64,000 nt of DNA from Desulfuromonadales bacterium. Its GTDB lineage: Bacteria > Desulfobacterota > Desulfuromonadia > Desulfuromonadales > BM103. The notes under the pieces were generated by a model. That model saw only the letters and a program-made list of their open reading frames with translations, was not told the origin of the DNA and made no database searches. The translations under genes and the position numbers were made by a program. Where the stretch lies: assembly GCA_030145195.1 (NCBI GenBank), contig JAQYVY010000009.1, positions 1 to 64,000 of the forward strand, written 5' to 3'. Positions 46,206 through 59,673 of this stretch are shown piece by piece; position 1 is the stretch's first letter; the number at the start of each line of letters is the position of its first letter.

Positions 46206-49013
46206 ATGAACTTACCAACACGTATCGGCAAATACAGGGCAAAGATTAACGGCTACGGCAAGGAGAATCTAGCCGAAATTCTGTACGATCTTGGACAGGT
46301 GATCCCGCTGATTACCCGTCACCCTTGCTGCCGACTTTATCTCGAAGATTTGACTGGTGGAATTCTGAGTTGCGTTCTGGCTTCAGGCCACACCGAAAAG
46401 GTTGTCCAGCGGCATGTTTTTTCGTTAACAGACCAAGATTACCTGATCTCACAAGTATATATAACGCAAGAAGATGCTGAGATTGCGGATGCCACGCTAC
46501 TGTCGCCTCAGGCCCAGCTGCTGGCGGAGGATTTTGGTGTCGTGTCTTCGACCCAGCTCCCGCTTGTGCACAATGGCCGCTCTATCGGGGTCATCTGTAT
46601 CGATAGTGCTCGTCCGGGACTGTTGCTTGATGAAGAGTGCCGTCAAGTGCTACGCGAATTCATGGCAGACATAGTTCCAATTCTTGACCAGGCACGAAAG
46701 TATCATCAACAAATTGTTATGGCGCGTCGGATCGATGGCTCGAAGAAGACCGAGGCTGCCCGTACCATGGTTCGTTCGGCGGTGCGCCTGATTGACAAAC
46801 TTTCTCTGGCTTCTGTGTTGATCCCTTCCCGTCTTGGTGCCGGTGGTAACGAACAGGGCTTGCAGGTTTTGGCTTCCTGTGCCCAGGACCGAAAAATACA
46901 GCGTCTCTACGAAGACGAGAAGTTGATCGATCTTAGCTCGGGGAAATCACTTTTGTCGCATTACATCAGTGCCGATGGCGTAATTACCGACGAAGCCATG
47001 CTGCAACCGCTCTACTTTCCAAGCCTCAAGGCGCAATCGTTGCAAAAACGTTACCTCACCGACGAGATCGGCTTGACCTCGCTTTTCGTCGTGCCACGTT
47101 ATGATAGTCGAACCCGTCGGGTAACCTGTCTGGTCAATTATTTTACCAGTGAACCTTACCGTTTCAGCGCATTCGAGCGTGGACTGCTCGAAGCGCACGC
47201 AGAGATGGCTGAGCGCGTCATTCAGGAAATTGGTGACGAACATATGGAAATCCAGGTTCTTTCCGAAATCAACGATCTCCTTCAGGAGGGGTTTGAAGGC
47301 ATCCAGACCTTTCTGAATCGCGTCCTTGCCAAGGCGACGGAATTGATTGGAGCTGATACCGGAAGTATCGCCCTGGCACGGGAGCAAAATGGTGAGCCGT
47401 GGCTTGTTATCGAGGAGGAAGACGGCACTCTGGTTGGTGCCAAAAGCAAAGAGTGGTTGAAGAAGAATATCCCCCCTATGAAGATCGGTCGCGGTGAATT
47501 GTCACGTGCAGAGCGTAGCCTGACTGGTTATGCCGCAGCCCTGCGTAAGCCGGTGATAGTCGATGATACGGATCAGGAAATGTCCGCTGAGGGGTTTTAT
47601 CGGCAGGTCACCAAGCTGATTCGTAGTGAAATCGCCGTGCCGGTAACGGTTTCAGGGAAGGTTTTGGCAGTGGTCTGCCTGAGCAGTCAGACACCACGCT
47701 ACTTCACCGATGAACACCAGCGCATTTTACAGATTATTGTGCAGATGATCGCCCGGCACCTGGCGGGGTTACTACAGATTGAGCGGCTGACTTCCGAGGT
47801 GCAGCGCTTACAGACAGATGTCACCTATCGGGATCCAAAAATCTCGTCATATCGTTTGGGTAACATCATCGGCAATTCGACCAAAGCCCAGGAACTTATC
47901 TCGACGATTGAGACGCTCTCTCCGCCTCTGTTCCGGCGCATTCTCCTGTGGCAGCAAGCGGATCTGCGCGAAACGGTCCTTGGCTTACCGACCGTCTTGA
48001 TTACCGGGGATACCGGCAGTGGCAAGGAATTTCTCTTTAACAATATCTATAGCCGATTGAATGAAATGTATCGGGCCAGAGTCGGAACGACTGGAGAATT
48101 GCCAGTCACCAAGACCAATATTGCGGCCTACAGCGGTGAGCTGACTTACTCGGAACTTTTTGGTCACAAGCGCGGGGCGTTTACCGGTGCCCATGCTGAC
48201 CGGCATGGGATTATCGAGGAGGCCAGCGGCGGCGTGGTCTTTCTCGACGAGATAGGTGATGCCGACCCGAAGACTCAAGTGCAGCTGTTGCGTTTCCTCG
48301 ACAATGGTGGTTTTGTTCGTCTCGGTGAGAATCAGACTCGCTTTGCGCGGGTATTGCTGGTCGCTGCCACCAACCAGAATATGCCGCGTTTGATCGCAGA
48401 AGGACGTTTCCGCGCCGATCTCTATCACCGCCTTTCAGAGTTGACTATTACGGTGCCGTCGCTCAATGAACGCCGGGAGGATATCCCCGATTTGGCAATC
48501 CATTTTTTGGGTCAACTCTACCGGATTTATCGTTTGGCTGACGAGCCAGCCGATCAAGTCCCCGCGATCAGCTCTGAGGCACAAAAGCTTCTTGCCCAGC
48601 ATGACTATACGGGCAACATTCGAGAGTTGCGCTCGATCCTACTGCGGGCGCTACTGTTTCGCCAAGGGCCAGTCATTTCAGGTGACGATCTCGGTCGGGC
48701 TCTTGCCTCTGGTCAACCACCGGTTGTTCTTAAGGAGCCGGATCCGGATCCGGATCCTGTAAGGCGTATTCAGTCTGCCCTTCAAGCGGGGGAGGGTGAT
48801 TTCTGGGGCCTGGTTCACAAGCCGTTTGCCGACAACCAGATGACTCGCGATACGGTGCGAGCGTTAATTGAGACAGCCCGTCGCGCTGGGGCCAGGAACA
48901 TGCCTGATATTGCGTTTGCCCTTAAGGCCTGCAATCCTCACAGCCAGGACAGCGATGAACAACGCAGGTTCTATAAATTCAAAAACTTCCTTTATAAAAC
49001 CATTAAAATGTAA
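46206..49013 (+). CDS. GAF-domain AAA+ protein of the sigma-54 activator type, without a Fis-type HTH
   Basis: 935 residues. The N-terminal 520 residues contain two or three GAF-like sensor domains, the first with 'PLVHNGRSIGVICIDSA' and another with 'VPVTVSGKVLAVVCLSS'. The AAA+ domain follows: Walker A 'GDTGSGKE' (about 601), 'RGAFTGA' (about 656), Walker B 'VVFLDEIG', 'RADLYHRL' arginine-finger region. The C-terminal 130 residues have no N-x-x-x-A-A-x-x-L-G Fis helix-turn-helix, so DNA targeting is unclear. A (GATCCG)3 run encodes the linker 'PDPDPDP' near 48740. ATG 46206 with AAGGAGAAG is chosen over GTG 46182. It precedes a sensor kinase and an NtrC regulator in the same direction. Confidence 0.85.
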   Translation: MNLPTRIGKYRAKINGYGKENLAEILYDLGQVIPLITRHPCCRLYLEDLTGGILSCVLASGHTEKVVQRHVFSLTDQDYLISQVYITQEDAEIADATLLSPQAQLLAEDFGVVSSTQLPLVHNGRSIGVICIDSARPGLLLDEECRQVLREFMADIVPILDQARKYHQQIVMARRIDGSKKTEAARTMVRSAVRLIDKLSLASVLIPSRLGAGGNEQGLQVLASCAQDRKIQRLYEDEKLIDLSSGKSLLSHYISADGVITDEAMLQPLYFPSLKAQSLQKRYLTDEIGLTSLFVVPRYDSRTRRVTCLVNYFTSEPYRFSAFERGLLEAHAEMAERVIQEIGDEHMEIQVLSEINDLLQEGFEGIQTFLNRVLAKATELIGADTGSIALAREQNGEPWLVIEEEDGTLVGAKSKEWLKKNIPPMKIGRGELSRAERSLTGYAAALRKPVIVDDTDQEMSAEGFYRQVTKLIRSEIAVPVTVSGKVLAVVCLSSQTPRYFTDEHQRILQIIVQMIARHLAGLLQIERLTSEVQRLQTDVTYRDPKISSYRLGNIIGNSTKAQELISTIETLSPPLFRRILLWQQADLRETVLGLPTVLITGDTGSGKEFLFNNIYSRLNEMYRARVGTTGELPVTKTNIAAYSGELTYSELFGHKRGAFTGAHADRHGIIEEASGGVVFLDEIGDADPKTQVQLLRFLDNGGFVRLGENQTRFARVLLVAATNQNMPRLIAEGRFRADLYHRLSELTITVPSLNERREDIPDLAIHFLGQLYRIYRLADEPADQVPAISSEAQKLLAQHDYTGNIRELRSILLRALLFRQGPVISGDDLGRALASGQPPVVLKEPDPDPDPVRRIQSALQAGEGDFWGLVHKPFADNQMTRDTVRALIETARRAGARNMPDIAFALKACNPHSQDSDEQRRFYKFKNFLYKTIKM

Positions 49014-49046
49014 ACCCTCCTAGCTAGCGGATTCACCGCATTGAAC

Positions 49047-49076
49047 TTGACACCAGAGGCTTTCGAGTTGTATTAA
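49047..49076 (+). promoter_or_regulatory. Candidate sigma-70 promoter of the sensor kinase gene
   Basis: Consensus TTGACA (49047-49052) and TATTAA (49071-49076) are 18 bases apart in the 349-base gap 49014-49362. The predicted start near 49083 gives an unusually long leader of about 280 bases. Confidence 0.5.
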
Positions 49077-49279
49077 TTAAATGTGATTAGCTTTTATTAA
49101 GTAGTCAGAAGTGCCCCCTCCCCTTCGCGAGGAAGGCCACGGCAAGCCATAAATCCTGACCTTGGGATCTGTGAGTATAGGGCGGGTTTTTAGAGTGTAA
49201 GTGCCAGAAAGGTTCCTTCGATTCAGTGGCTTGCACTAGTTGTCGTTGCTAACGTACGCCTTCAGGTTGAAGCCAGACA

Positions 49280-49338
49280 ACCGGGTTGCCGGGGTGAGCC
49301 CGGTGGTGCCGGATTCCTTCCCTAACACCCGGTTTTTT
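49280..49338 (+). promoter_or_regulatory. Attenuator-like alternative hairpins before the sensor kinase
   Basis: ACCGGG at 49280-49285 can pair with CCCGGT at 49299-49304, while the sequence from 49299 can instead pair with CACCCGG at 49326-49332, which is followed by a six-T run (49333-49338). The two pairings exclude each other: one frees, one forms a terminator. A short frame ATG 49340 encoding MRWVDWLL ends by overlapping the kinase ATG. Confidence 0.5.
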
Positions 49339-49362
49339 AATGCGATGGGTGGATTGGTTGTT

Positions 49363-51006
49363 ATGACATTATTCAAGTCGTTCAGTCAAAGTCTGGTCAG
49401 TAAGTTCACCTTCCGAACTGGTTTTGTTCTGTTGGTAACGGTCTCTCTGTTTGCCACTTTCAACATCAGCACACTTAAGGAGCTTTTTCTGCAGGAGGCC
49501 AAGGATGACATTGAAACTGTCAGTGAAATCATCCTGCATACAACGCACTTTCAGATGTTGGAGGACAACCGGCTTCGAGTCTACGAGATGATGGAGGCAG
49601 TCAGTTCACATGAAAAAATAGATCGGATTCGACTCTTCAGTACTAAAGGGCAGGTCCATTTTTCCACCGACCCGGAAGAAATTGGCAAAGCGATGGAAGA
49701 AGTCAAAACAGAAAGTCAGGACTGTGATAATGAAATATTTTTCCCCGAGGAGCTTCCCCTTGAAGACAGCAGGAGGATTTTTCATAACGCTCAGGGCGAG
49801 GAGATGCTTAGCGTTACCACGGCTATTTACAACAGACCGAGCTGCCATACGGCAGCCTGCCATGTACACTCGCCGGATACCAAGATTCTCGGTTTTCTTG
49901 AGGTGCAAGGGTCTCTGGCTAAAATCGGGGTTCAGGCGAGCGCTTATCGCAACAGTATTGCAACCTTTGGCGTTACTCTGCTGTTGATTGTTATCATTTG
50001 TTTGAGTTGGATGACACAAAGCATGGTCATTCATCCGGTCTCTGATCTTCTGATGCATGCCCGCAAGGTCTCGAATATGGAACTTGACAGTCATTTGCAG
50101 ATGAAGTCAAACGATGAAATCGGAGAGCTCTCCGAGGCGTTCAATGACATGACTGTAAGATTAAAGGAGACGCGCGACGAATATCGCGAATTAACCGAAA
50201 CGCTGGAAGCAAAAGTTCTTGAGCGGACAGAAGAGATTGCCCAGGTTAGCGATCAATTGGTGCGATCAGAAAAGTTGGCCTCGCTCGGACAACTGGTTGC
50301 CGGTATTGCGCATGAGATCAACAACCCCCTGACCGGGATTCTGATGTTTGCCAACATGTTTGCCAAAGATCAGAGGCTTGACGATAGTCAGCGCGAAGAT
50401 GCCTTAACGATTGTTCATGAAACAAACCGCTGCGCCGATATTGTCAAACGGCTCCTTGATTTTTCCCGGACATCAATCCCCGACAAACGGCTCAGATCCT
50501 TGTCAAAGATCATGGAGAGTACTTTGGCCATGGTGACACACCATGCGGCTGTCAACGATGTCAATATTGTGCGCCATTATGGAGCAGCCCTCCCGGAGAT
50601 TGAAGTTGATCCAACCCAGATTGAGCAAGTTTTCATAAATCTACTGGTCAACGCCTGCCACGCTATGCCGCTGGGTGGGAGCCTGACTGTTGATATGCGT
50701 GCGGATTTAAGGCGTGATCTGTTAATCACCTCGATCGAGGACACCGGATCAGGAATTTCTGAAGAAAACATGAGTCGGGTTTTTGACCCGTTCTTTACGA
50801 CCAAAAACCAAGATTTGGATGGGGTTGTCGGGACGGGCCTCGGTCTGTCGGTGTCCTATGGCATCATACAAAATCATGGTGGGCTAATTTTGGTGCAAAG
50901 TGTCCTTGGCCGAGGGACGACCTTTACCATTGAACTTCCGATATCGTCGTTAATGCGTACTGCCGAGGAGAAGACTCCACCTGAAAACAATGTATCGACA
51001 GCATAG
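49363..51006 (+). CDS. Membrane sensor histidine kinase with a CX4CH periplasmic motif
   Basis: 547 residues: membrane helix (about 16-36), periplasmic sensor (37-205), second helix, HAMP (about 225-280), H-box 'GIAHEINNPLTG' with His317, then N-box 'FINLLVNACHAM', 'DTGSGI', 'DPFFTTK' and 'GTGLGLSVSYGI'. The sensor ends in 'SCHTAACH', a CX4CH motif (Cys161, Cys166, His167) able to hold a c-type haem or metal. The orphan sensor at 57084 has the same motif plus CXXCH, which is lost here ('QDCDNEI'). ATG 49363 follows GGTGGA; GTG-free ATG 49345 is also possible. The partner regulator follows 123 bases later. Confidence 0.88.
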   Translation: MTLFKSFSQSLVSKFTFRTGFVLLVTVSLFATFNISTLKELFLQEAKDDIETVSEIILHTTHFQMLEDNRLRVYEMMEAVSSHEKIDRIRLFSTKGQVHFSTDPEEIGKAMEEVKTESQDCDNEIFFPEELPLEDSRRIFHNAQGEEMLSVTTAIYNRPSCHTAACHVHSPDTKILGFLEVQGSLAKIGVQASAYRNSIATFGVTLLLIVIICLSWMTQSMVIHPVSDLLMHARKVSNMELDSHLQMKSNDEIGELSEAFNDMTVRLKETRDEYRELTETLEAKVLERTEEIAQVSDQLVRSEKLASLGQLVAGIAHEINNPLTGILMFANMFAKDQRLDDSQREDALTIVHETNRCADIVKRLLDFSRTSIPDKRLRSLSKIMESTLAMVTHHAAVNDVNIVRHYGAALPEIEVDPTQIEQVFINLLVNACHAMPLGGSLTVDMRADLRRDLLITSIEDTGSGISEENMSRVFDPFFTTKNQDLDGVVGTGLGLSVSYGIIQNHGGLILVQSVLGRGTTFTIELPISSLMRTAEEKTPPENNVSTA

Positions 51007-51129
51007 GTTTTTTGAACCCAAAAAGCTGTTTAGGAACCGTCAGCATGTTGGCGTGACCATGTCCAAAGAAGGGCGGAGCTGGCCTTCCGTGAGGACATCC
51101 AAGATTTATACGAGCGACAAGAGGTTATT

Positions 51130-52551
51130 ATGAATATTGAATTTGATCGAATTCTGATTGCTGATGACGATGCCGTCATCCGTGAGGGTTTGCGACGCAT
51201 TCTCTCGGCAGAAGGATATGAAGTTGAAACAGTCAGCAACGGACGCGCGGCGTTAGAGCGTCTGGAACAGAAAAGGTTCAAGTTGCTGGTGACTGATTTG
51301 AAAATGCCTGGAATGAGTGGTCTTGAAGTCTTGAAGTCACTACGTACCTGCCAGCCAGAATTGCCGGTGGTGCTGATTACCGGATATGCGGCAATTGATA
51401 ATGCGGTTGAGGCGATGAAAAATGGTGCGACGGATTACCTGTCCAAACCGTTTGACAACGAGGAAATTATCAGCAAAGTCAAGAATGCCATGGAATCCAG
51501 AGCTGTATTGATTGATGACATTTGCCTCTACCGAGAGATGAACGAGACCCAAGGTTTTGAGAGCCTGCTTGGTGACAGTCGTGAAATGAAGCGACTTTAC
51601 CAGCGCATAATGCAGGTGGCTCCAACTGACAGTACCGTACTGATCAGTGGTGAAAGTGGCACCGGGAAAGAGCTGGTCGCTCGCGCCATTCATGCCCACA
51701 GCCCGCGACGCTCGCAACCTTTTGTTGTGATTGATTGTACTGCTCTCGCCGAAACGTTGCTGGAAAGTGAACTGTTTGGCCATGTCAAGGGCTCCTTTAC
51801 TGGCGCAAGCCAGACTAAACGCGGACTATTTGAGGTTGCTGAGGGCGGCACGTTGTTTCTTGACGAGGTCGGCAATATCAGTTTGGGGACTCAGGCCAAA
51901 CTGCTACGTGTTCTTCAGGAGCGCGTTGTCACTCCAATCGGTGGCACCAAACCGATCCCCATTAATATTCGCCTGGTTGGTGCCACCAATGCGAACCTGA
52001 TGGAAATGGTCAGGGAAGGAACTTTCCGCGAGGATCTGTTCTTTCGCCTTAACATCATTCCGATTGAACTGCCCCCTCTGAGAGATCGCAAAGGCGACTT
52101 GATGTTGCTGGCGAGCCTTTTTCTTAAACGGTTCGCCGAGGAGAATGGAAAGGAGATTCGAGGCTTCAGTCCAGACGTGATTGAGCAATTGGAACGTCAC
52201 CATTTCCCCGGCAATGTTCGTGAACTGGAAAATATCATCGAGCGAGCGGTGGTTCTCTCCCTCTCGGATCTTCTTCAATGTCAAGATCTGGAAATGCCGG
52301 GTGGCGATCACACCACAGCCTTATCGCTCGACGAAAATGTCCCTCTTGATGCCAACGAATTGAAAGAGCGCAAGCGGTTGCTCCGTGAAGAGGCTGTTGT
52401 GCCATTGGAACGGGCTTTTTTGTTGAGCGCTCTCGACCGCAACGATTGGAATATCACCAGAGCCGCAGAAGAGGTTGGTATGCAGCGGCCCAATTTCCAG
52501 GCCATGCTCAAAAAACAAGGGATCAGCATTCGCTCACGAGTGACTGAGTAG
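51130..52551 (+). CDS. NtrC-type sigma-54-dependent response regulator
   Basis: 473 residues. Receiver with phospho-acceptor Asp56 ('LLVTDLKMPGMSG') and 'LSKPFD' Lys; AAA+ domain with Walker A 'GESGTGKELV', 'KGSFTGA' (Ser in place of the first Ala of GAFTGA), Walker B 'TLFLDEVG'; Fis-type HTH at the C-terminus 'NITRAAEEVGMQRPNFQAML'. It activates sigma-54 promoters when phosphorylated, here almost surely by the preceding kinase. A sigma-54 promoter candidate and inverted repeats lie immediately downstream, before the respiratory operon, which is thus the likely target. Confidence 0.95.
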   Translation: MNIEFDRILIADDDAVIREGLRRILSAEGYEVETVSNGRAALERLEQKRFKLLVTDLKMPGMSGLEVLKSLRTCQPELPVVLITGYAAIDNAVEAMKNGATDYLSKPFDNEEIISKVKNAMESRAVLIDDICLYREMNETQGFESLLGDSREMKRLYQRIMQVAPTDSTVLISGESGTGKELVARAIHAHSPRRSQPFVVIDCTALAETLLESELFGHVKGSFTGASQTKRGLFEVAEGGTLFLDEVGNISLGTQAKLLRVLQERVVTPIGGTKPIPINIRLVGATNANLMEMVREGTFREDLFFRLNIIPIELPPLRDRKGDLMLLASLFLKRFAEENGKEIRGFSPDVIEQLERHHFPGNVRELENIIERAVVLSLSDLLQCQDLEMPGGDHTTALSLDENVPLDANELKERKRLLREEAVVPLERAFLLSALDRNDWNITRAAEEVGMQRPNFQAMLKKQGISIRSRVTE

Positions 52552-52635
52552 GTGAGGGGCAGTCTTGTCCCCGTTTAGACGCTCTCTCGGGAGCTATTCA
52601 ACAAACTTATTAAGAAAAATATATTAAATAATCAC

Positions 52636-52656
52636 CTGTATATTTGCTCTATACAG
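52636..52656. promoter_or_regulatory. Inverted repeat CTGTATA-N7-TATACAG, candidate activator site
   Basis: A perfect 7-bp inverted repeat about 200 bases upstream of the sigma-54 promoter candidate, a normal distance for an NtrC-type upstream activating site. It lies in a very AT-rich 378-base gap (52552-52929). Confidence 0.5.
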
Positions 52657-52737
52657 CCCTTTCTCAGCAAGAAATCCGTTAAATTTCAAGTATTTACTGT
52701 CTAATTCAGACGATCCTCACCTGCTAATTTATTTTAT

Positions 52738-52760
52738 AACGTATATTTTTTATATACGTT
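52738..52760. promoter_or_regulatory. Inverted repeat AACGTATAT-N5-ATATACGTT, candidate activator site
   Basis: A perfect 9-bp inverted repeat about 95 bases upstream of the sigma-54 promoter candidate. Together with the 52636 repeat it forms a spaced pair suited to an oligomeric activator; it could also be a bent or melted AT element. Confidence 0.5.
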
Positions 52761-52853
52761 TCTGTCTTCTATGTGGATGGCTGATCTTTTTCGCCCTAAT
52801 AAATAACTATAAAAAACAGTAACTTAAGTAAATAGGTAAAAAATTATTAATAA

Positions 52854-52869
52854 TGGTATAGCTGATGCA
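52854..52869 (+). promoter_or_regulatory. Candidate sigma-54 (-24/-12) promoter of the respiratory operon
   Basis: TGGTATAGCTGATGCA has GG and GC exactly 10 bases apart, as sigma-54 promoters require, and matches consensus TGGCAC-N5-TTGCA at most key positions. The start of the first operon gene is about 50 bases downstream of the expected transcript start. Confidence 0.55.
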
Positions 52870-52929
52870 ACGCACCTACAGCAAGAGCAAAGGACAAAGT
52901 ATTTAAGGAACATAGGTAAGGAGGTTGTT

Positions 52930-53154
52930 ATGAAGACAATGAGAATGTTGATGACAATGGTAGTTGGTACTGCTTCAGCTGCTTTCGCAGCAACGGGGAC
53001 ACACGGTGAGGATACAGGTGTTTTGGCCTATTTTTTTGTCGGGTTTTTCGCCTTGATTATTGTGACCCAGTTGGTGCCAGCGCTAATCCTTTTTTTTGGG
53101 ATGATAAAGGGGGTGTTTTATCGCCCGGAAAAAACTTCTGTGAAAGTTGACTAA
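52930..53154 (+). CDS. Small membrane protein A of the respiratory operon
   Basis: 74 residues: a signal-like N-terminus (to about 20, SAAFAA), then one long hydrophobic helix 'GVLAYFFVGFFALIIVTQLV' continuing 'PALILFFGMIKGV'. It is paralogous in pattern to the product at 53660 (same helix layout, same 'Q-L-x-P-x-x-x-L-x-x-G-x-x-K-G' core). AAGGAGG precedes ATG. First gene of the operon; probably a small accessory subunit. Confidence 0.75.
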   Translation: MKTMRMLMTMVVGTASAAFAATGTHGEDTGVLAYFFVGFFALIIVTQLVPALILFFGMIKGVFYRPEKTSVKVD

Positions 53155-53164
53155 ATGGGATTTG

Positions 53165-53185
53165 CTTCTGAATTGGATTCAGAGG
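53165..53185 (+). other. Intercistronic hairpin
   Basis: A 9-bp stem with a 3-base loop (core TCTGAAT-TGG-ATTCAGA) directly after the first operon gene. No T-tail, so more likely an mRNA stability or processing element than a terminator. Confidence 0.5.
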
Positions 53186-53212
53186 CGATCCGGCCTTGGG
53201 TAGGAGAAAAAA

Positions 53213-53626
53213 ATGACGATGCATATGCCAGGACTACTCATCGCAGACGAAGATCTGTTGACCAGAAAACGCATGGCTGATTTGTTCATCAATGCTGGTT
53301 ATCAGGTGACAGTGACAAACTCTGCTGCGGGGGTTCTTTATGGAATCTTAAAAAAGACAGCTCAAGTGGTCCTGTTGAGCACCCGGTTTGATCAATTGCT
53401 AGCGACAGAATTAATTCCGATTTTGAAGAAATGCAACCGCAACCTGACTATCATCCTGGTTGCCAGTGAACTACCGTTGGCACTGATACGCAATGCAAGG
53501 CGAGAGGGCATTTTTTATCATGCTCTCAAGCCTACCCGTCCGGGCGATGAAGAAGAGTTGAGAGAAGCTGTTAAATGCGCATTCGAAAAGGTAACGCAAA
53601 ATCATGTAGACGAGTGGCCGCAATAA
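53213..53626 (+). CDS. Pseudo-receiver protein lacking the phospho-acceptor Asp
   Basis: 137 residues with the full receiver pattern: acidic pocket Asp12-Glu13-Asp14, switch Ser85 and conserved Lys106-Pro107 ('HALKP'). The site of the phospho-acceptor Asp is Ser56 in 'VVLLSTRFD', so ordinary phosphorylation is not possible. It stands alone without output domain, between two small membrane protein genes. Likely a protein-contact module that links the complex to signalling; function is inference. GGAG precedes ATG 53213. Confidence 0.75.
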   Translation: MTMHMPGLLIADEDLLTRKRMADLFINAGYQVTVTNSAAGVLYGILKKTAQVVLLSTRFDQLLATELIPILKKCNRNLTIILVASELPLALIRNARREGIFYHALKPTRPGDEEELREAVKCAFEKVTQNHVDEWPQ

Positions 53627-53659
53627 AATTGTGGGCCCAAAAACTAAGTGGAGGAAATT

Positions 53660-53902
53660 ATGAAAAAGTTCAGAAGTTTATTAATGGGAATGTCGATGTT
53701 AATGATCATGGCTGATACGGCTCTTGCTGTGGATACCACCAAAACCTACTCCAGTGGGCTTCTGGTCGGTCTCTTCTTGGCCTTCTGTGCACTGGTTGTT
53801 GTCGTTCAATTGATGCCGACGATCATGCTTCTGATTGGTTTTGTCAAAGGACTGGTCAAGGGGACTAACAAACAGGCAAGTCGTTCTGCCAGCAGGAACT
53901 AA
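53660..53902 (+). CDS. Small membrane protein B of the respiratory operon
   Basis: 80 residues: signal-like N-terminus to about 22 (DTALAV), then one long helix 'GLLVGLFLAFCALVVVVQLM' with 'PTIMLLIGFVKGLVKG' and a basic tail. It resembles the product at 52930 and probably arose by duplication. ATG 53660 has GGAGG; GTG 53648 is in frame but lies on the ribosome site. Confidence 0.75.
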   Translation: MKKFRSLLMGMSMLMIMADTALAVDTTKTYSSGLLVGLFLAFCALVVVVQLMPTIMLLIGFVKGLVKGTNKQASRSASRN

Positions 53903-53907
53903 ATTTA

Positions 53908-53926
53908 CTCGGGTTTATGACCCGAG
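53908..53926 (+). other. Intercistronic hairpin
   Basis: Perfect 7-bp stem CTCGGGT-TTATG-ACCCGAG just after the second small membrane protein gene and before the next ribosome site. No T-tail. Confidence 0.55.
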
Positions 53927-53946
53927 GTACACAAAAGGAGGAGCAT

Positions 53947-54117
53947 ATGTTAGATCAAATCCTTGGAAATATAGTTGAAGTGCAAAGCGTTTATACGATG
54001 GTGGATTTCTATCAGTATATCAAAGGAATCGAATACCTCATCTGTGTCGCGTTCTTCATCGCTTTCCCGATGTATTTCAAATACGTGAACGAGGAAACCG
54101 GTGAGATCAACAAGTGA
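53947..54117 (+). CDS. Small single-helix membrane protein C of the respiratory operon
   Basis: 56 residues with one membrane helix 'GIEYLICVAFFIAFPMYF' and a short polar tail 'KYVNEETGEINK'. AAGGAGGAG lies just before ATG 53947. Size and shape resemble small assembly subunits of respiratory complexes (CcoQ-like in style only). No family recognised. Confidence 0.7.
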   Translation: MLDQILGNIVEVQSVYTMVDFYQYIKGIEYLICVAFFIAFPMYFKYVNEETGEINK

Positions 54118-54156
54118 GAATGCCATTTGGCACTCATCAGTAAAGGAGAGAGAATC

Positions 54157-54663
54157 ATGAGCGCGAAGCAAATCTTGACAACCTTGATGATGGCACTGGC
54201 ATTCGTTGCGACGGGCAGTATGGCCCAGGCCGCGGATATGCCAGATCAAGTGTCGATCGATACTATGGTCAAACTGTTCGATAGTGTCGAATTCGATCAT
54301 GCCATGCATACCGACCTGGGCGAGGATTGTTCAGTCTGTCATCACCACACAACCGGTACAGGTACAGCCGATAAGCGCTGCGTACGCTGTCATGCCGATA
54401 GCGAAGAATATGTCCCGGTCGGTTGTAGCTCCTGCCACGTTGCCGACCCGTTTTCTGCGGAAAATATCCAACAGAAAGAGTTGGATCTTTATCAGTTTCA
54501 TATTGACAAGCCTGGTTTGAAAGCCGCCTATCACTGGAATTGTATCGGTTGTCATGAGGAAATGGATGGACCGACAGATTGCCAGGATTGCCATGCCAGA
54601 ACGCCAGAGGGCGACGCATTTTATCACATCGATGCGACCGGTTCTTCGACGTCTGGTCACTGA
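54157..54663 (+). CDS. Pentahaem periplasmic cytochrome c
   Basis: 168 residues with signal peptide to about 25 (GSMAQAA) and five CXXCH motifs: CSVCH, CVRCH, CSSCH, CIGCH and CQDCH, with many further His for axial ligation (class III, cytochrome c3/c7-like). It is the likely electron acceptor or donor of the ferredoxin and NrfD-like proteins encoded next. AAAGGAG precedes ATG 54157. A small TGCCA-TT-TGGCA hairpin lies just upstream (54120-54135 region). Confidence 0.9.
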   Translation: MSAKQILTTLMMALAFVATGSMAQAADMPDQVSIDTMVKLFDSVEFDHAMHTDLGEDCSVCHHHTTGTGTADKRCVRCHADSEEYVPVGCSSCHVADPFSAENIQQKELDLYQFHIDKPGLKAAYHWNCIGCHEEMDGPTDCQDCHARTPEGDAFYHIDATGSSTSGH

Positions 54664-54723
54664 GGATAGTTGGCCTTGAAATAAGACTTTAGGGATTAAG
54701 ATTTTAAGTATAAGGAGAGCGTT

Positions 54724-55680
54724 ATGAGTGGAATCAGTCGACGGAGATTTCTTGCTGCGAGTGTAGCAGGATGTGCCGCCACAACCTTGGCCGGACCCAA
54801 GAAGGCCCTAGCGGCCGGTGCGTTTACCGGCTACTCGGACAGTATGGGTGTGCTGGTGGATTTGACTCGTTGCATCGGCTGCCGTAGCTGCGAAGCCGCC
54901 TGCAACAAGGAACAGGCCTTACCCGCCCCTGACCGGCCATTTAATGACATGTCTATCTTTGATGAGACTTTTCATGGTGGCACACAGAAACGGCGTCCTG
55001 ATGAAAATGCCTACACGGTGGTTAATCGTTATGAGCCAGAAGGCAGCGATGAGCCCATTTATCGTAAAGTGCAATGCAATCACTGCAATGAGCCTGCATG
55101 TCTCACTTCTTGTTTCGTCAACGCTTACACCAAGACCCAAGAAGGTGCTGTAATCTACAATAACAAGGTGTGCGTCGGTTGCCGAAATTGCATGATTGCC
55201 TGCCCTTTCAATGTCCCGGGCTACAGCTACTCCAGTGCCTTTGATCCGATTGTCAAGAAGTGTATCTTCTGTCACGATACTAGGTTGAAAAATGGCCTGC
55301 CACCAGCCTGCGTCGATATCTGCCCGCAGGAGGCGTTGACCTTCGGCATGCGCAAAGATCTTCTCAAAATAGGCAACCAGCGTATCCAGACCCATCCGGG
55401 TCGTTACGTCGATCATATCTATGGTGAAAAAGAACTGGGCGGAACCAGTTGGATGTACCTGTCATCTGCACCGTTCGATGAGGTGGGCTTCGACGCTAAC
55501 GTGAGCAACGAGCCGATCATCAATAACGTTAAAGACTTCCTCGGTACGGTACCGATGGTACTGGCAATTTGGCCAGCAATGTTCACAGGTTTCCACCTCC
55601 TGGCAAAAAAGCAGGCCGGTCACGATAACCACGATGAAAAAGTAGAAGAGCAGCATGGCGAGGAGGGAGGAGAACAATGA
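54724..55680 (+). CDS. Tat-exported four-cluster ferredoxin subunit (DsrO/HybA/NrfC-like)
   Basis: 318 residues. Tat motif 'SRRRFLAAS' at the N-terminus. Four [4Fe-4S] sites: 'CIGCRSCEAAC', 'CNHCNEPACLTSC', 'CVGCRNCMIAC', and 'CIFCHD...CVDIC'. A C-terminal membrane helix ('VPMVLAIWPAMFTGFHLLA') anchors it, then an acidic His-rich tail. It should carry electrons between the NrfD-like quinone site and the pentahaem cytochrome. Its stop overlaps the next start (ATGA), so the two are coupled. Confidence 0.93.
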   Translation: MSGISRRRFLAASVAGCAATTLAGPKKALAAGAFTGYSDSMGVLVDLTRCIGCRSCEAACNKEQALPAPDRPFNDMSIFDETFHGGTQKRRPDENAYTVVNRYEPEGSDEPIYRKVQCNHCNEPACLTSCFVNAYTKTQEGAVIYNNKVCVGCRNCMIACPFNVPGYSYSSAFDPIVKKCIFCHDTRLKNGLPPACVDICPQEALTFGMRKDLLKIGNQRIQTHPGRYVDHIYGEKELGGTSWMYLSSAPFDEVGFDANVSNEPIINNVKDFLGTVPMVLAIWPAMFTGFHLLAKKQAGHDNHDEKVEEQHGEEGGEQ

Positions 55681-57017
55681 AATCGCTCATTAAGTCCGGA
55701 GTTAACGTGGTTGACTCCCATGTCAACGATAAGAAGGACGAGGATTGGTCTTTCATTCGAAAAATGATGCTTGGCCTGCACTTTGGTCAATATCTCGGTC
55801 AGGCTCTGCGTAACCCTTTCAACTGGATCCTGGGTGTTATTTTTGCTATCGGTCTGCCCTTAATCGCCTACCGTTTCCTCTTTGGACTCAGTGTGGTTAC
55901 ACACGCCTCGAATGATTATCCTTGGGGCCTGTTCCTTGGGTTTGGTCTTTTTGCTATGGTGCCACTGTCGGCATCAGGCTTTATGCTCGGAACTACGGTT
56001 GAGATTTTCGGCCGTCATGATTTCGAACCAGTAGAACGTCTAGCCCTGCTCAATGGTTTGCTCGGGTACCTCTTCGCTGTTATCTATCTACTGGTCGACC
56101 TTGGCCAACCATGGCGCCTGCCTTACCCGATGGTGGTTTCTTTCGGTCCGGCGGCAGTGCTCTTTCTGGTTGCCTGGCATGTGGCCACCTACCTGTCAGT
56201 ACAAGTCGCCGAAGTTTCAGTAGCTTTCTTCGAGTGGATTGGTTGGCTGGGAGGTAAGCGCTTTATCAGACGAATCGCTATCGGTTTGACCGTGTCTGGT
56301 ATCATTCTCTCGACCCTGCATCAGGGAGCTTTGGGGGCACTCTTCTGTTATGCCCCAGGCAAAGTTCACCCGCTCTGGTTTTCGGCGTCGTTCCAGTGGA
56401 TTCACTTCTTCTGTTCGTCGATTCCCGCGGGCCTTTGCATGGTGATCGCCGTTAGTACTATCATCAAGAAGACGATGGCTTGGCGTTGCGATGACAACTT
56501 CCTTGACAACCTTGATCGTTGCACTCTTGGCCTAGCCAAAGGTGCCAGTTTGGCCCTGATTACCTACCTGGTTATCAAAATAATCGGTATTGCCCATGAC
56601 AACGAGTGGGCCTACCTGGCAACAGGTTGGGGCGCGTGGTTCTTGTTTGAGATGGCCGTAGGCGTGGTATTGCCAATCATCCTGTTCGGTTATGCAATTC
56701 GCCATAAAATCGTTGGCATGGCCAGAGTTGGTGCCTTTATCACTGTCTTCGGGATTGTTCTGAATCGTTTGAATACGGCACTGATTACTTTTAACTGGCA
56801 ACTATATCAGGAAGTACCGCATATTTTTGAAGTGATTATCGCCGTGACAATTTTTGCGATTTATGTGGTAGTCTATCGTTTTATCCTCTATCGTCTACCT
56901 ATCCTTTATACATGGAAGGCGGAACCGGAAGCAGCCTTTGCTGCAGATGCAGCTAAGGCTACGCCGGTTCGGATGACAACGCCTGCAGTCGAAGCGGTGT
57001 ATCGCAAGATCGATTGA
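55677..57017 (+). CDS. NrfD/HybB-like integral membrane quinone-interacting subunit
   Basis: 446 residues with about ten membrane helices, soluble N- and C-termini, and the family stretch 'NDYPWGLFLGFGLFAMVPLSASGF'. It is of the HybB/PsrC branch that exchanges electrons with menaquinone. With the ferredoxin and cytochrome it forms a quinone:cytochrome c oxidoreductase comparable to Cbc4 (CbcSTU) type modules of Geobacter; exact orthology untested. No molybdopterin subunit is nearby, so electrons must end at cytochromes. Confidence 0.92.
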   Translation: MKSLIKSGVNVVDSHVNDKKDEDWSFIRKMMLGLHFGQYLGQALRNPFNWILGVIFAIGLPLIAYRFLFGLSVVTHASNDYPWGLFLGFGLFAMVPLSASGFMLGTTVEIFGRHDFEPVERLALLNGLLGYLFAVIYLLVDLGQPWRLPYPMVVSFGPAAVLFLVAWHVATYLSVQVAEVSVAFFEWIGWLGGKRFIRRIAIGLTVSGIILSTLHQGALGALFCYAPGKVHPLWFSASFQWIHFFCSSIPAGLCMVIAVSTIIKKTMAWRCDDNFLDNLDRCTLGLAKGASLALITYLVIKIIGIAHDNEWAYLATGWGAWFLFEMAVGVVLPIILFGYAIRHKIVGMARVGAFITVFGIVLNRLNTALITFNWQLYQEVPHIFEVIIAVTIFAIYVVVYRFILYRLPILYTWKAEPEAAFAADAAKATPVRMTTPAVEAVYRKID

Positions 57018-57020
57018 GCA

Positions 57021-57056
57021 ATTACCGCGGGGCCGAGAAATCGGTCCCGCGGTAAT
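57021..57056 (+). other. Very stable 15-bp intercistronic hairpin
   Basis: ATTACCGCGGG and its exact complement plus four more pairs (one G-T) enclose a 6-base loop AGAAAT. No T-tail follows, so it is probably an mRNA-end protector or partial attenuator that lowers expression of the sensor gene after the oxidoreductase genes. Confidence 0.7.
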
Positions 57057-57083
57057 AAGATTCTTTCAAGGGGAGTCTCCATC

Positions 57084-57929
57084 ATGCTCAGCAGTATAAA
57101 CAGTCGCGCTATCGTCCCTGTCGCTTGTGCTGTGACCGGGTTTGTTATTGCCTGCTGTGTGCTTTTGTATACCTTCGTTAAAGAGGATCTCATTGAAGGT
57201 GAGGTTCGGCATGCAGCAGATTTGTCAGATACTGTGATTAAATCGACCCGATACGCTATGCTCCACGATGATCGGGAAACTTTAAGTAATATTATTAGCA
57301 GCATTGGCGAGCAAAATCAGGTCGAACATGTTCGGATCTTCAATAAGAAGGGTTTGATCATGTTCTCCCGCGACAAAGGCGAACTCAACCGCTTTATCGA
57401 CAAGACGGCGGCGGGTTGTACTGAATGTCACGCGGGGGCAGAGCCAAAACGTAGCCTTGGCACCATGGCTAAGGCCCGCCAGTACACCAACAAGCTTGGT
57501 AAAGATGTCTTGGCGATTACTGCGCCGTTTTATAACGAACCTGAATGTTCTAATGCCGCCTGTCATTTCCACGATTCCGAGCAAAGCCTTCTGGGTACCC
57601 TTGATATCGGCGTCTCTCAGGATCCCCTCAAACGAACACTTGGCCAATTACAGAACCGAATGATCGTGTTCAGTGGCATGATTTTGATTTTGACTGTCGG
57701 TGCCGTCTGTGCCCTGCTTTACAGCCAGGTGTTTCTGCCTATCAAACAACTTGCTGACTTTACCGAAGGTGCTGGGAGTGATACTCTTGGACACGAATTT
57801 CCTGAGGTCAGTGGAGACATTGCTCGGTTGGCAAATGATTTTCAAAAAATGGCCAACCGCGTACAAGAACTCGAACAACAGCTTCTTAGTAAAGAAAGTG
57901 ATGCATCCCCACCGGATTCGCAATCCTGA
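57084..57929 (+). CDS. Orphan haem-motif membrane sensor with HAMP but no output domain
   Basis: 281 residues: membrane helix (about 10-32), periplasmic domain, second helix (about 193-215), HAMP-like linker, short coiled coil and end. The sensor has a CXXCH (Cys112, Cys115, His116) and a CX4CH ('CSNAACH', Cys155, Cys160, His161). The second motif and the flanking 'LLGTLDIGVS' match the sensor of the kinase at 49363. No kinase, cyclase or methyl-accepting domain follows. It may pair with the kinase or the pseudo-receiver. GGGGAG precedes ATG. Confidence 0.82.
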   Translation: MLSSINSRAIVPVACAVTGFVIACCVLLYTFVKEDLIEGEVRHAADLSDTVIKSTRYAMLHDDRETLSNIISSIGEQNQVEHVRIFNKKGLIMFSRDKGELNRFIDKTAAGCTECHAGAEPKRSLGTMAKARQYTNKLGKDVLAITAPFYNEPECSNAACHFHDSEQSLLGTLDIGVSQDPLKRTLGQLQNRMIVFSGMILILTVGAVCALLYSQVFLPIKQLADFTEGAGSDTLGHEFPEVSGDIARLANDFQKMANRVQELEQQLLSKESDASPPDSQS

Positions 57930-57998
57930 CTTTGCCGAACCTTTTGTTACTGACTCCGTTTTAACCGTTCTGCTGCAGGTCGGTAGAAGGAGATAACC

Positions 57999-58526
57999 AT
58001 GAGCCAGGAAGGGCGACCATCCGATGTGCCGCAGTCACCTGGCGGTGAAGATCTACGGCAGAGGATTGAGCTGCGTATCCGACGCCTTGAAAGAGCTTCC
58101 GGAAACGGCCTCTGGTCTATGGTTCTGTTCCTTTCGGTCAGTTTTGTTGCTTTCGATGGATTCTCAATTTTCCCCACCCTTAGCGATAATGTCCGTAAAA
58201 TTCTCGGTCCATCGCCACCGGCGGAAATGATCAGTCTCGCTCTGGTTGTTTACGCATTCTCCAGCATCGTTCGGACTCTTGCCCGCATGAGTCAAAAGAT
58301 AAAGCCTTACATGGGCTTGATGCATGCCGCGTTTTTTGCGGCCTTCTATTCGTTTTACCACTTGTCTGGAGCGCTTCAGGATAACTTCTGGGCCGTTTTT
58401 TTTGCCGGAATCAGTGTCATGGGGCTGGAAAACTTCTACCTTTGGTCACACGGTAATGAGGCGGTTCGCAAGGAGCGGGCTTTACTTGATAGTTTGCGAG
58501 GTGCAGGGGAGGGGGAGGAAAAATAG
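57999..58526 (+). CDS. Four-helix membrane protein, last gene of the respiratory operon
   Basis: 175 residues: charged N-terminus, four membrane helices (about 35-55, 72-93, 105-125, 130-148) and a charged C-terminal coiled segment. AAGGAG precedes ATG 57999. No family recognised. It could be an accessory subunit of the NrfD-like complex. Confidence 0.65.
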   Translation: MSQEGRPSDVPQSPGGEDLRQRIELRIRRLERASGNGLWSMVLFLSVSFVAFDGFSIFPTLSDNVRKILGPSPPAEMISLALVVYAFSSIVRTLARMSQKIKPYMGLMHAAFFAAFYSFYHLSGALQDNFWAVFFAGISVMGLENFYLWSHGNEAVRKERALLDSLRGAGEGEEK

Positions 58527-58575
58527 AGAATAAGAAGACTAGAGCAAGAGTTTCTGTTTCTATGTACGGTCTACT

Positions 58576-59115
58576 TTAAAACTCAAGGTTCTTCTGCACA
58601 TAACTTTCCACGCTGTCGATCTGGCTCTGCATGTCCATCATCCGGTTCTCCAAAAGAATGATCTCTTCATCCATCCGCTCTATTCTGTCTTTGATACTTT
58701 GCCTGCGAAAGCCCAGTTCCTCGCGGGCTTTTTGAATAGAGCCCTGCTGGTTGGCGTCAAAAGAGGGGGACAGGCCATCTTCTTCGCGCTGGAATTGTTC
58801 CAAGAGATCTTCAAGGCGATTACGTTTAGTTCTTGACGACTGCAAGTCACGCTCGAACATTTCGATTCTGCGGGAGCGAAAATTAAGATAAGCAATAGCA
58901 ATGTCGAGTTTACGCAGTGAGATGTCCTGTTTTGAACTGTTCGTTTGTTTTTCTATTTGTTTCGCAAGAGTGTCAATCGATTCAGACAGGGCCGTTAATT
59001 TGCCAGTTATGTGGGCTTCAGTACTTTCTTGTTGGGTTGCTGTGACCTGCACCGAAAACAGCACGACAAACAGGATTCCTATCACAACAGATTTAGGCAT
59101 GATGGTAAAATTCAT
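58576..59115 (-). CDS. Exported coiled-coil protein, unknown
   Basis: 179 residues: signal peptide (about 1-27, SVQVTA), then almost entirely heptad coiled coil ('LAKQIEKQTNSSKQDISLRK' to the end), no enzyme motif. AAAGGA precedes ATG 59115. Likely a periplasmic structural or tethering protein. Confidence 0.7.
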   Translation of the reverse strand: MNFTIMPKSVVIGILFVVLFSVQVTATQQESTEAHITGKLTALSESIDTLAKQIEKQTNSSKQDISLRKLDIAIAYLNFRSRRIEMFERDLQSSRTKRNRLEDLLEQFQREEDGLSPSFDANQQGSIQKAREELGFRRQSIKDRIERMDEEIILLENRMMDMQSQIDSVESYVQKNLEF

Positions 59116-59196
59116 GGGTCTATCCTTTGCAATTTAAGAAAACGTCCCGTCAAAGCATTTTCGAGTGTTGAAGGTAAAAGGCGGCACTTCGTGTAA

Positions 59197-59673
59197 TTAT
59201 TCGTTAGCAAGGGTTTCTGAGCCGACGTTAAATTGATAAACTTCAAAAGAGCCGCCTCGATCGATCAGTTTGAGATTGATAACGGCATCCCCATGTTCAT
59301 ACTTGGCCTCAATATTATATTCGACAACGGTCTGTTTGCCGATATCGGTTTGCTGATCCAGATGAAGGTTCTCAAACTCTGGTTCCGCCATCTCCTGGAG
59401 TGTTCCCAACCGGGAAAACAAGCCCATGACCTGGGTAAGTTTTTCCTCCGATATGGTGGCAGAAACTTCAGGGGCTATCAACGCTCTTGTTTTCTCAGGA
59501 TCCCATTGTGAGATTTCCGGGATGATTTGATTGATATACGGCACGGCTCTATCGTCATATTCTGATGATTGGCTTTTATCGTAAAGTGCAGAACCGGCGA
59601 ATATGACCATAATGCTGACAAGCCAGGTCGCCATCAGGATGAAGAATTTTTTCAAGGATTGTTTGTTTTCCAC
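59197..59673 (-). CDS. Membrane-anchored protein, unknown
   Basis: 158 residues from GTG 59673, which has AAGGAAG 7 bases upstream and gives a clean N-terminal anchor (KKFFILMATWLVSIMVIFAG). A longer frame to 59778 adds a polar, unlikely leader. The soluble part ('EYDDRAVPYINQIIPEISQW') resembles small periplasmic beta/alpha domains found as DUF-type proteins; no family recognised. Confidence 0.6.
   Translation of the reverse strand: MENKQSLKKFFILMATWLVSIMVIFAGSALYDKSQSSEYDDRAVPYINQIIPEISQWDPEKTRALIAPEVSATISEEKLTQVMGLFSRLGTLQEMAEPEFENLHLDQQTDIGKQTVVEYNIEAKYEHGDAVINLKLIDRGGSFEVYQFNVGSETLANE

Follow-up and report, generated by a model that had tools for sequence, protein, structure and literature searches.

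Judged from its sequence, the locus at 52930-58526 of the window (the whole 64,000-nucleotide stretch of DNA analysed here) is probably a sigma-54-driven operon in which a menaquinol:cytochrome c oxidoreductase core of the Hmc/Nhc type is surrounded by a cassette of accessory and control genes of the kind found in Geobacter-type cbc5 clusters. It is an open question how metal-reducing bacteria select from their inner-membrane quinol oxidoreductases when the redox potential falls, and the locus suggests that two unrelated oxidoreductases have been plugged into one conserved control cassette. The core is a variant of the known Hmc/Nhc type, and the cassette is known piecemeal, as cbc5 genes. In the open-licence literature we found no description of the shared cassette on unrelated cores, nor of the degenerate receiver with paired small proteins, its solo units and the double palindrome, which is weak evidence of their novelty.

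Organization of the locus

Nine ORFs separated by short gaps are located on the + strand in the order sm1, pRec, sm2, sm3, cyt, FeS, NrfD, sens and TM4. Upstream of sm1 we found a haem-sensor histidine kinase and an NtrC-type regulator (49345-52551). Both had been left out of the initial annotation and are part of the same unit as the nine ORFs. The features are listed below.

49345-51006, + strand: histidine kinase (HAMP, HisKA, HATPase) with periplasmic c-haem PAS-like sensor; exact start uncertain (Pfam, motif alignment)
51130-52551, + strand: NtrC-type sigma-54 response regulator, which we take to be in a BccR-like position (Pfam)
52637-52655, no strand: palindrome UAS2, TGTATATTTGCTCTATACA, centre at ~-208 from the -24 element (genome-wide pattern search, comparative promoters)
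52740-52758, no strand: palindrome UAS1, CGTATATTTTTTATATACG, centre at ~-105 from the -24 element (pattern search, comparative promoters)
52854-52869, + strand: candidate sigma-54 -24/-12 element, TGGTATAGCTGATGCA (sequence; homologous element in relatives, all core types)
52930-53154, + strand: sm1, small protein with apparent signal peptide (AxA), one TM helix and an invariant Gln-x-x-Pro (ORF, family alignment)
53213-53626, + strand: pRec, pseudo-receiver, phospho-acceptor Asp replaced by Ser (alignment, AlphaFold2, Foldseek)
53660-53902, + strand: sm2, paralogue of sm1 (family alignment)
53947-54117, + strand: sm3, HmcD-like small membrane protein (NCBIfam HmcD 15.6 bits, below the cut-off of 34; conserved beside the core)
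54157-54663, + strand: pentahaem class III-type cytochrome c (five CXXCH; aligns with the C-terminal part of HmcA and of the nine-haem cytochrome)
54724-55680, + strand: HmcB-like Tat ferredoxin with four [4Fe-4S] motifs and a C-terminal TM segment (Pfam, NCBIfam, cysteine count)
55677-57017, + strand: HmcC-like NrfD-family integral membrane subunit (NCBIfam, orthologue alignment, tree)
57021-57056, + strand: intercistronic RNA hairpin, 16 bp stem (covariation in ten relatives)
57084-57929, + strand: sens, CbcD-like c-haem PAS sensor with HAMP, CXXCH and CX4CH, without output domain (Pfam, motif alignment)
57999-58526, + strand: TM4, CbcE-like four-helix membrane protein (44% identity to its homologue at locus L193; AlphaFold2 pLDDT 91)

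The model of TM4 had no fold match in the PDB at E<=0.001. In the kinase of the window the first CXXCH of the haem sensor is lost and the CX4CH motif is kept; most other loci shown keep both.

The redox core is of the Hmc/Nhc type

A pentahaem cytochrome, a four-cluster Tat ferredoxin and an NrfD-like protein had been recognised in the initial annotation, and the motif counts and family matches agree with all three. The five CXXCH motifs of the cytochrome were also found in 97 of the 99 core cytochromes counted. The ferredoxin carries 16 cluster cysteines and one further cysteine in the signal peptide. Among the NCBIfam families it was closest to HmcB (395 bits, curated cut-off of 420 not reached), the NrfD protein was closest to HmcC (357 bits, curated cut-off of 550 not reached), and sm3 gave its weak match to HmcD. 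The NrfD model PF03916 did not match the NrfD protein of the window, which was identified by NCBIfam and orthologue searches, and a sequence search returned no PDB relative of this subunit. Because HmcB, HmcC and HmcD are the nearest NCBIfam families and the cytochrome aligns by sequence with parts of HmcA and the nine-haem cytochrome, we assign the core to the Hmc/Nhc-type quinol:cytochrome c oxidoreductases rather than to Cbc4, although on sequence comparison it stays below all family cut-offs.

Better comparisons than the Cbc4 resemblance proposed at first are therefore Hmc/Nhc for the core, by its scores, and cbc5 for the accessory genes. As the identity of the core, Cbc4 was rejected on the number of haems (five versus four). 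Cbc3 and Cbc6 were set aside as relatives since in the literature the place of the expected four-cluster ferredoxin is taken by Rieske or transmembrane proteins. The cluster has no gene for a molybdopterin subunit, and the earlier description as a quinone:cytochrome redox complex of the NrfD type without Mo is supported. HmcE and HmcF were likewise found neither among the nine ORFs nor among their neighbours.

A separate FeS/NrfD pair is located on contig 23 of the same genome and is ~42% and ~31% identical to that of the window. At the loci L077 and L025 (genome G032, contig 10, ~279575-280785) the NrfD gene is broken into pieces by a stop and frame changes and the rest of the cluster is kept.

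The accessory genes are shared with cbc5-type clusters

A profile search with pRec also detected this protein in genomes without this NrfD core. There its gene belongs to clusters that also encode a 7-haem and a b561-type cytochrome and, in many cases, a 12-haem cytochrome. These clusters agree in gene order and haem counts with cbcEDCBA, the Cbc5 cluster of Geobacter sulfurreducens, the composition of which has been published (PMC11434368, PMC7894505, PMC10989804). In one such cbc5-type cluster (L193) identity to the window amounts to 46% for the kinase, 63% for the regulator, 66% for pRec, 52% for sens and 44% for TM4. In CbcAB-type clusters homologues of sens and TM4 come after the core, and homologues of the kinase and regulator accompany it. 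By sequence homology sens and TM4 correspond to the genes that cbc5-type clusters carry in the CbcD and CbcE positions. The haem sensor, initially described as an orphan, and the four-helix protein are thus CbcD- and CbcE-like.

In G. sulfurreducens GSU0596 is annotated as 'response receiver' and GSU0597 as hypothetical (PMC10599522), and GSU0591 and GSU0599 are sensors with two haem motifs (PMC8396549). Gene order together with the published annotations would allow the cassette genes to be mapped to GSU numbers. By gene order the trio would correspond to GSU0595-0597, with the annotated GSU0596 in the place matching pRec. Geobacter is genetically tractable.

The genome of the window has a single CbcB homologue at E<=1e-4, located on contig 67. 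The corresponding cluster (L188, 5433-14581) comprises a CbcA/CbcB-type core, a divergent set of small proteins and pRec, and a TM4 homologue; its kinase differs from that of the window and there are two regulators.

On this sequence comparison the accessory genes are not peculiar to the NrfD core, as the same set wraps the unrelated CbcABC core. This suggests that different respiratory complexes can be exchanged under a common control system. The earlier proposal of a redox complex with built-in sensing stands as far as the conserved sensory genes are concerned, but not in assuming a single complex of all nine products that is specific to this core. A single stable complex with the accessory proteins as structural subunits would agree with the tight gene spacing on one strand and with the listing of CbcD and CbcE as members of the Cbc5 complex (PMC7894505, PMC10989804); the presence of the same cassette around an unrelated core argues against it.

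A pseudo-receiver between two small membrane proteins

For pRec, AlphaFold2 predicted a receiver (beta-alpha)5 fold (pTM 0.83), and the PDB neighbours found by Foldseek are Spo0F-type receivers. The position of the phospho-acceptor is occupied by Ser in the window. Of the 61 relatives at NrfD loci, 59 have Ser or Gly there, and all nine at CbcAB-type loci (9/9) have Gly, in line with the original description as a receiver that cannot be phosphorylated. The Asp is retained in a distant family (5/5) and in a Pelovirga-type group. Conservation is highest in the stretch alpha3-beta4-alpha4-beta5. This pattern fits a protein-binding receiver, and pRec may function by binding another protein.

The three tiny membrane proteins reported initially are present as well; sm1 and sm2 are paralogues of each other and sm3 is weakly HmcD-like. 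In one family of the phylum (L200, L201, L202, L204, L205) the order is small protein-small protein-pRec and the Asp is kept. At L201 and L205 this set adjoins multihaem and b561-type cytochromes, a further core type with similar control elements.

A solo sm1-pRec-sm2 unit without a redox core is located on contig 46 of the same genome (~73781-74935; L187 7782-8936). It has its own palindrome and sigma-54 element, and is followed downstream by a terminator-like hairpin and then tRNA-Met. Such solo trios again speak against a complex of all nine products. From the sequence data the trio is most likely a separable module that tunes the quinol oxidoreductase in use, whichever it is, in its activity, its assembly or its signalling.

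Distribution and phylogeny

We surveyed 117 genomes of the class, each at least 90% complete. The paired small membrane proteins with their dead receiver stand out as a conserved module: 121 pseudo-receivers were found in 70 of the 117 genomes, 46 of them next to the NrfD core, 45 next to CbcB and 30 next to neither, some of the latter near contig ends. All 70 genomes contain at least one of the two cores. A pseudo-receiver was present within 4.5 kb of 44 of the 52 NrfD orthologues (including one broken copy added separately), far above chance. Nearby copies were missing for 41 of 86 CbcB and 8 of 52 NrfD genes in this sample. Mutual exclusivity of the two cores was ruled out, with pRec located beside both in 25 genomes.

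The NrfD tree comprised 104 rows, 92 of which form the orthologous group. In the clade of the window the cassette was found at 71 of 72 loci, and the remaining contig is too short. In the sister clade of 20, which includes Desulfobulbus, Desulfobulbaceae and Desulfobacterales, 18 loci are without cassette and two contigs are too short. The split between both clades is supported by SH-aLRT values of 85-86. A core lacking the trio, the haem/HAMP protein and TM4 can therefore exist. A gene-order survey had been suggested in the initial annotation as a check for conserved clusters lacking the small genes and pRec, and its answer depends on the clade: nearly always present in that of the window, never in its sister. 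With regard to the nine-subunit complex, the near-constant presence in the first clade is as expected of subunits, but the sister clade has the same core without cassette. Together with the solo trios and the unrelated core this leads us to regard such a complex as improbable, and we retain the reading of a known core inside a shared cassette. In Desulfobulbus rhabdoformis (L175, 5642-7498) a protein that by eye is FtsH-like lies directly upstream of the same pentahaem core, replacing the cassette.

In the pRec tree, the resolution of which is limited by the short sequences, CbcAB-adjacent members are scattered among NrfD-adjacent ones, and supported branches force at least 5 changes to or from the CbcAB label. 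The simplest reading of the tree is that cores were exchanged under a conserved cassette.

Promoter, palindromes and intercistronic hairpin

The candidate -24/-12 element of the window deviates from the consensus and ties with a chance site inside sm1 in a simple window scan. In place of a strict scan of the window for TGGCACN5TTGC we used a weighted sigma-54 scan that included relatives, and in close relatives the homologous site was the top match. A sigma-54 element was found upstream of nearly all cassettes of every core type.

Further upstream, two palindromes with the consensus YGTATA-N7-TATACR offer a precise candidate operator for finding the regulon. Using a threshold of at least 10 of 12 matching positions, at least one palindrome was detected in 49 of 59 promoters and two in 33 of 59 (shuffle means 4.6 and 0.18). 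Their distances follow the helical repeat (Rayleigh p <1e-9 at 10.2-10.5 bp), a value that is optimistic since close relatives are not independent. The 3.4-Mb genome contains three exact copies of the palindrome, two before the window operon and one before the solo trio, and none of the reversed control pattern. As about one site per genome is expected by chance, it is the placement of the exact sites that is telling and not their number. In the CbcAB cassette of the same genome (L188) YGTATA palindromes are absent. The neighbouring NtrC-type regulator would be the obvious binder of the palindromes. Joshi et al. (2021) are reported to have found that low potential induces cbcBA of G. sulfurreducens and that the regulator BccR assists in this.

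The hairpin at 57021-57056 is located between the NrfD core gene and the CbcD-like gene. Among ten close relatives 11 of its 14 pairs show compensatory changes. It is missing from several more distant loci, and Rfam gave no match within 49000-59500. The hairpin may adjust the level of core mRNA relative to that of accessory mRNA.

Proposed mechanism and role of the trio

The following model builds on what can be read from the DNA, namely the homologies, the sharing of the cassette, the solo copies, the promoter with its palindromes and the degenerate acceptor site. The c-haem PAS sensor of the kinase would read the periplasmic redox state. The NtrC-type regulator would then bind the two palindromes, which lie ~105 and ~208 bp ahead of the -24 element, and activate sigma-54 transcription of the nine genes and of the solo trio elsewhere in the genome. 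Menaquinol would be oxidised by the NrfD-like subunit, and the four-cluster ferredoxin would relay the electrons to the pentahaem cytochrome, from which they would reach periplasmic cytochromes. We propose this path because it is established for the Nhc and Hmc families, in which electrons move along the NrfD subunit, the [4Fe-4S] clusters and the multihaem cytochrome; in sulfate reducers the presumed direction of Nhc is towards quinone (PMC8076601). The direction from menaquinol to cytochrome is suggested by the parallel with CbcBA, which acts at low potential (PMC12307469). The accessory set, also used with other quinol oxidoreductases, would be switched on together with this one and would include the trio of two small TM proteins and a pseudo-receiver unable to take phosphate at the usual site. 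Taken together, the sequence features most likely reflect a menaquinol oxidoreductase that works at low potential and belongs to a shared redox-responsive regulon; the trio would be a separable regulatory or assembly module.

For the trio itself, signalling feedback and a part in assembly or activity both agree with the evidence. Anchored to the membrane through sm1 and sm2, pRec could be a two-component feedback element docking on the kinase or regulator. The receiver fold, the degenerate site and the conserved alpha3-beta4-alpha4-beta5 stretch point in this direction, as does the palindrome common to the solo trio and the operon; the CbcB and NrfD copies without nearby pRec do not, though it could act in trans, and we consider this function rather unlikely. 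We are equally doubtful of a general service in the assembly, stability or membrane organisation of quinol oxidoreductases. The trio does occur with two core types and, in divergent form, with a third cytochrome/b-type pair, and G. sulfurreducens forms intracytoplasmic membranes when conditions are thermodynamically limiting (PMC10082016), which is also when CbcBA is used (PMC12307469), but the sister clade keeps the same core without trio. Both functions fall within the preferred reading of a separable module in a shared cassette. Somewhat less tentatively, yet short of an even chance, we propose that the trio is an undescribed transferable membrane regulator and that the shared sigma-54 regulon lets unrelated cores swap within one redox-control cassette.

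Comparison with known systems

With the Hmc (HmcABCDEF) and Nhc (NhcABCD, nine-haem cytochrome) complexes of sulfate reducers the cluster shares a class III-type multihaem cytochrome, a four-cluster ferredoxin, an NrfD-type subunit and an HmcD-like small protein. The A-B-C-D make-up of Nhc is found here in full, the match of the small D subunit being weak, and like Nhc the cluster is without HmcE and HmcF. It differs in having five haems instead of nine (NhcA) or sixteen (HmcA), and in its cbc5-type accessory cassette and sigma-54 control.

Cbc4 (CbcSTU) of Geobacter likewise combines a cytochrome c, a ferredoxin and an integral membrane subunit. It consists of a tetrahaem cytochrome, a 4Fe-4S ferredoxin and a membrane subunit and has been proposed to be a menaquinol:ferricytochrome c oxidoreductase (PMC10989804, PMC11434368). 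In contrast, the cytochrome of the window is pentahaem, and the descriptions of Cbc4 consulted give no accessory cassette.

With the c-haem PAS sensors of the GSU0935/GSU0582 type there is a weak Pfam match of the periplasmic domain (Mcp40H-20_sensor) and a shared CXXCH motif, but here a second motif, CX4CH, is present and a chemotaxis output domain is absent.

With the Cbc5 cluster (CbcABCDE with GSU0595-0599) the window has in common the kinase, the NtrC regulator, the trio of small protein, pRec and small protein, and the CbcD- and CbcE-like genes, as well as the sigma-54 promoter and palindromes. The difference lies in the core: CbcA (7 haem), CbcB (b561-type) and CbcC (12 haem) are absent from the window cluster, and the pentahaem cytochrome, the ferredoxin and the NrfD protein stand in their place.
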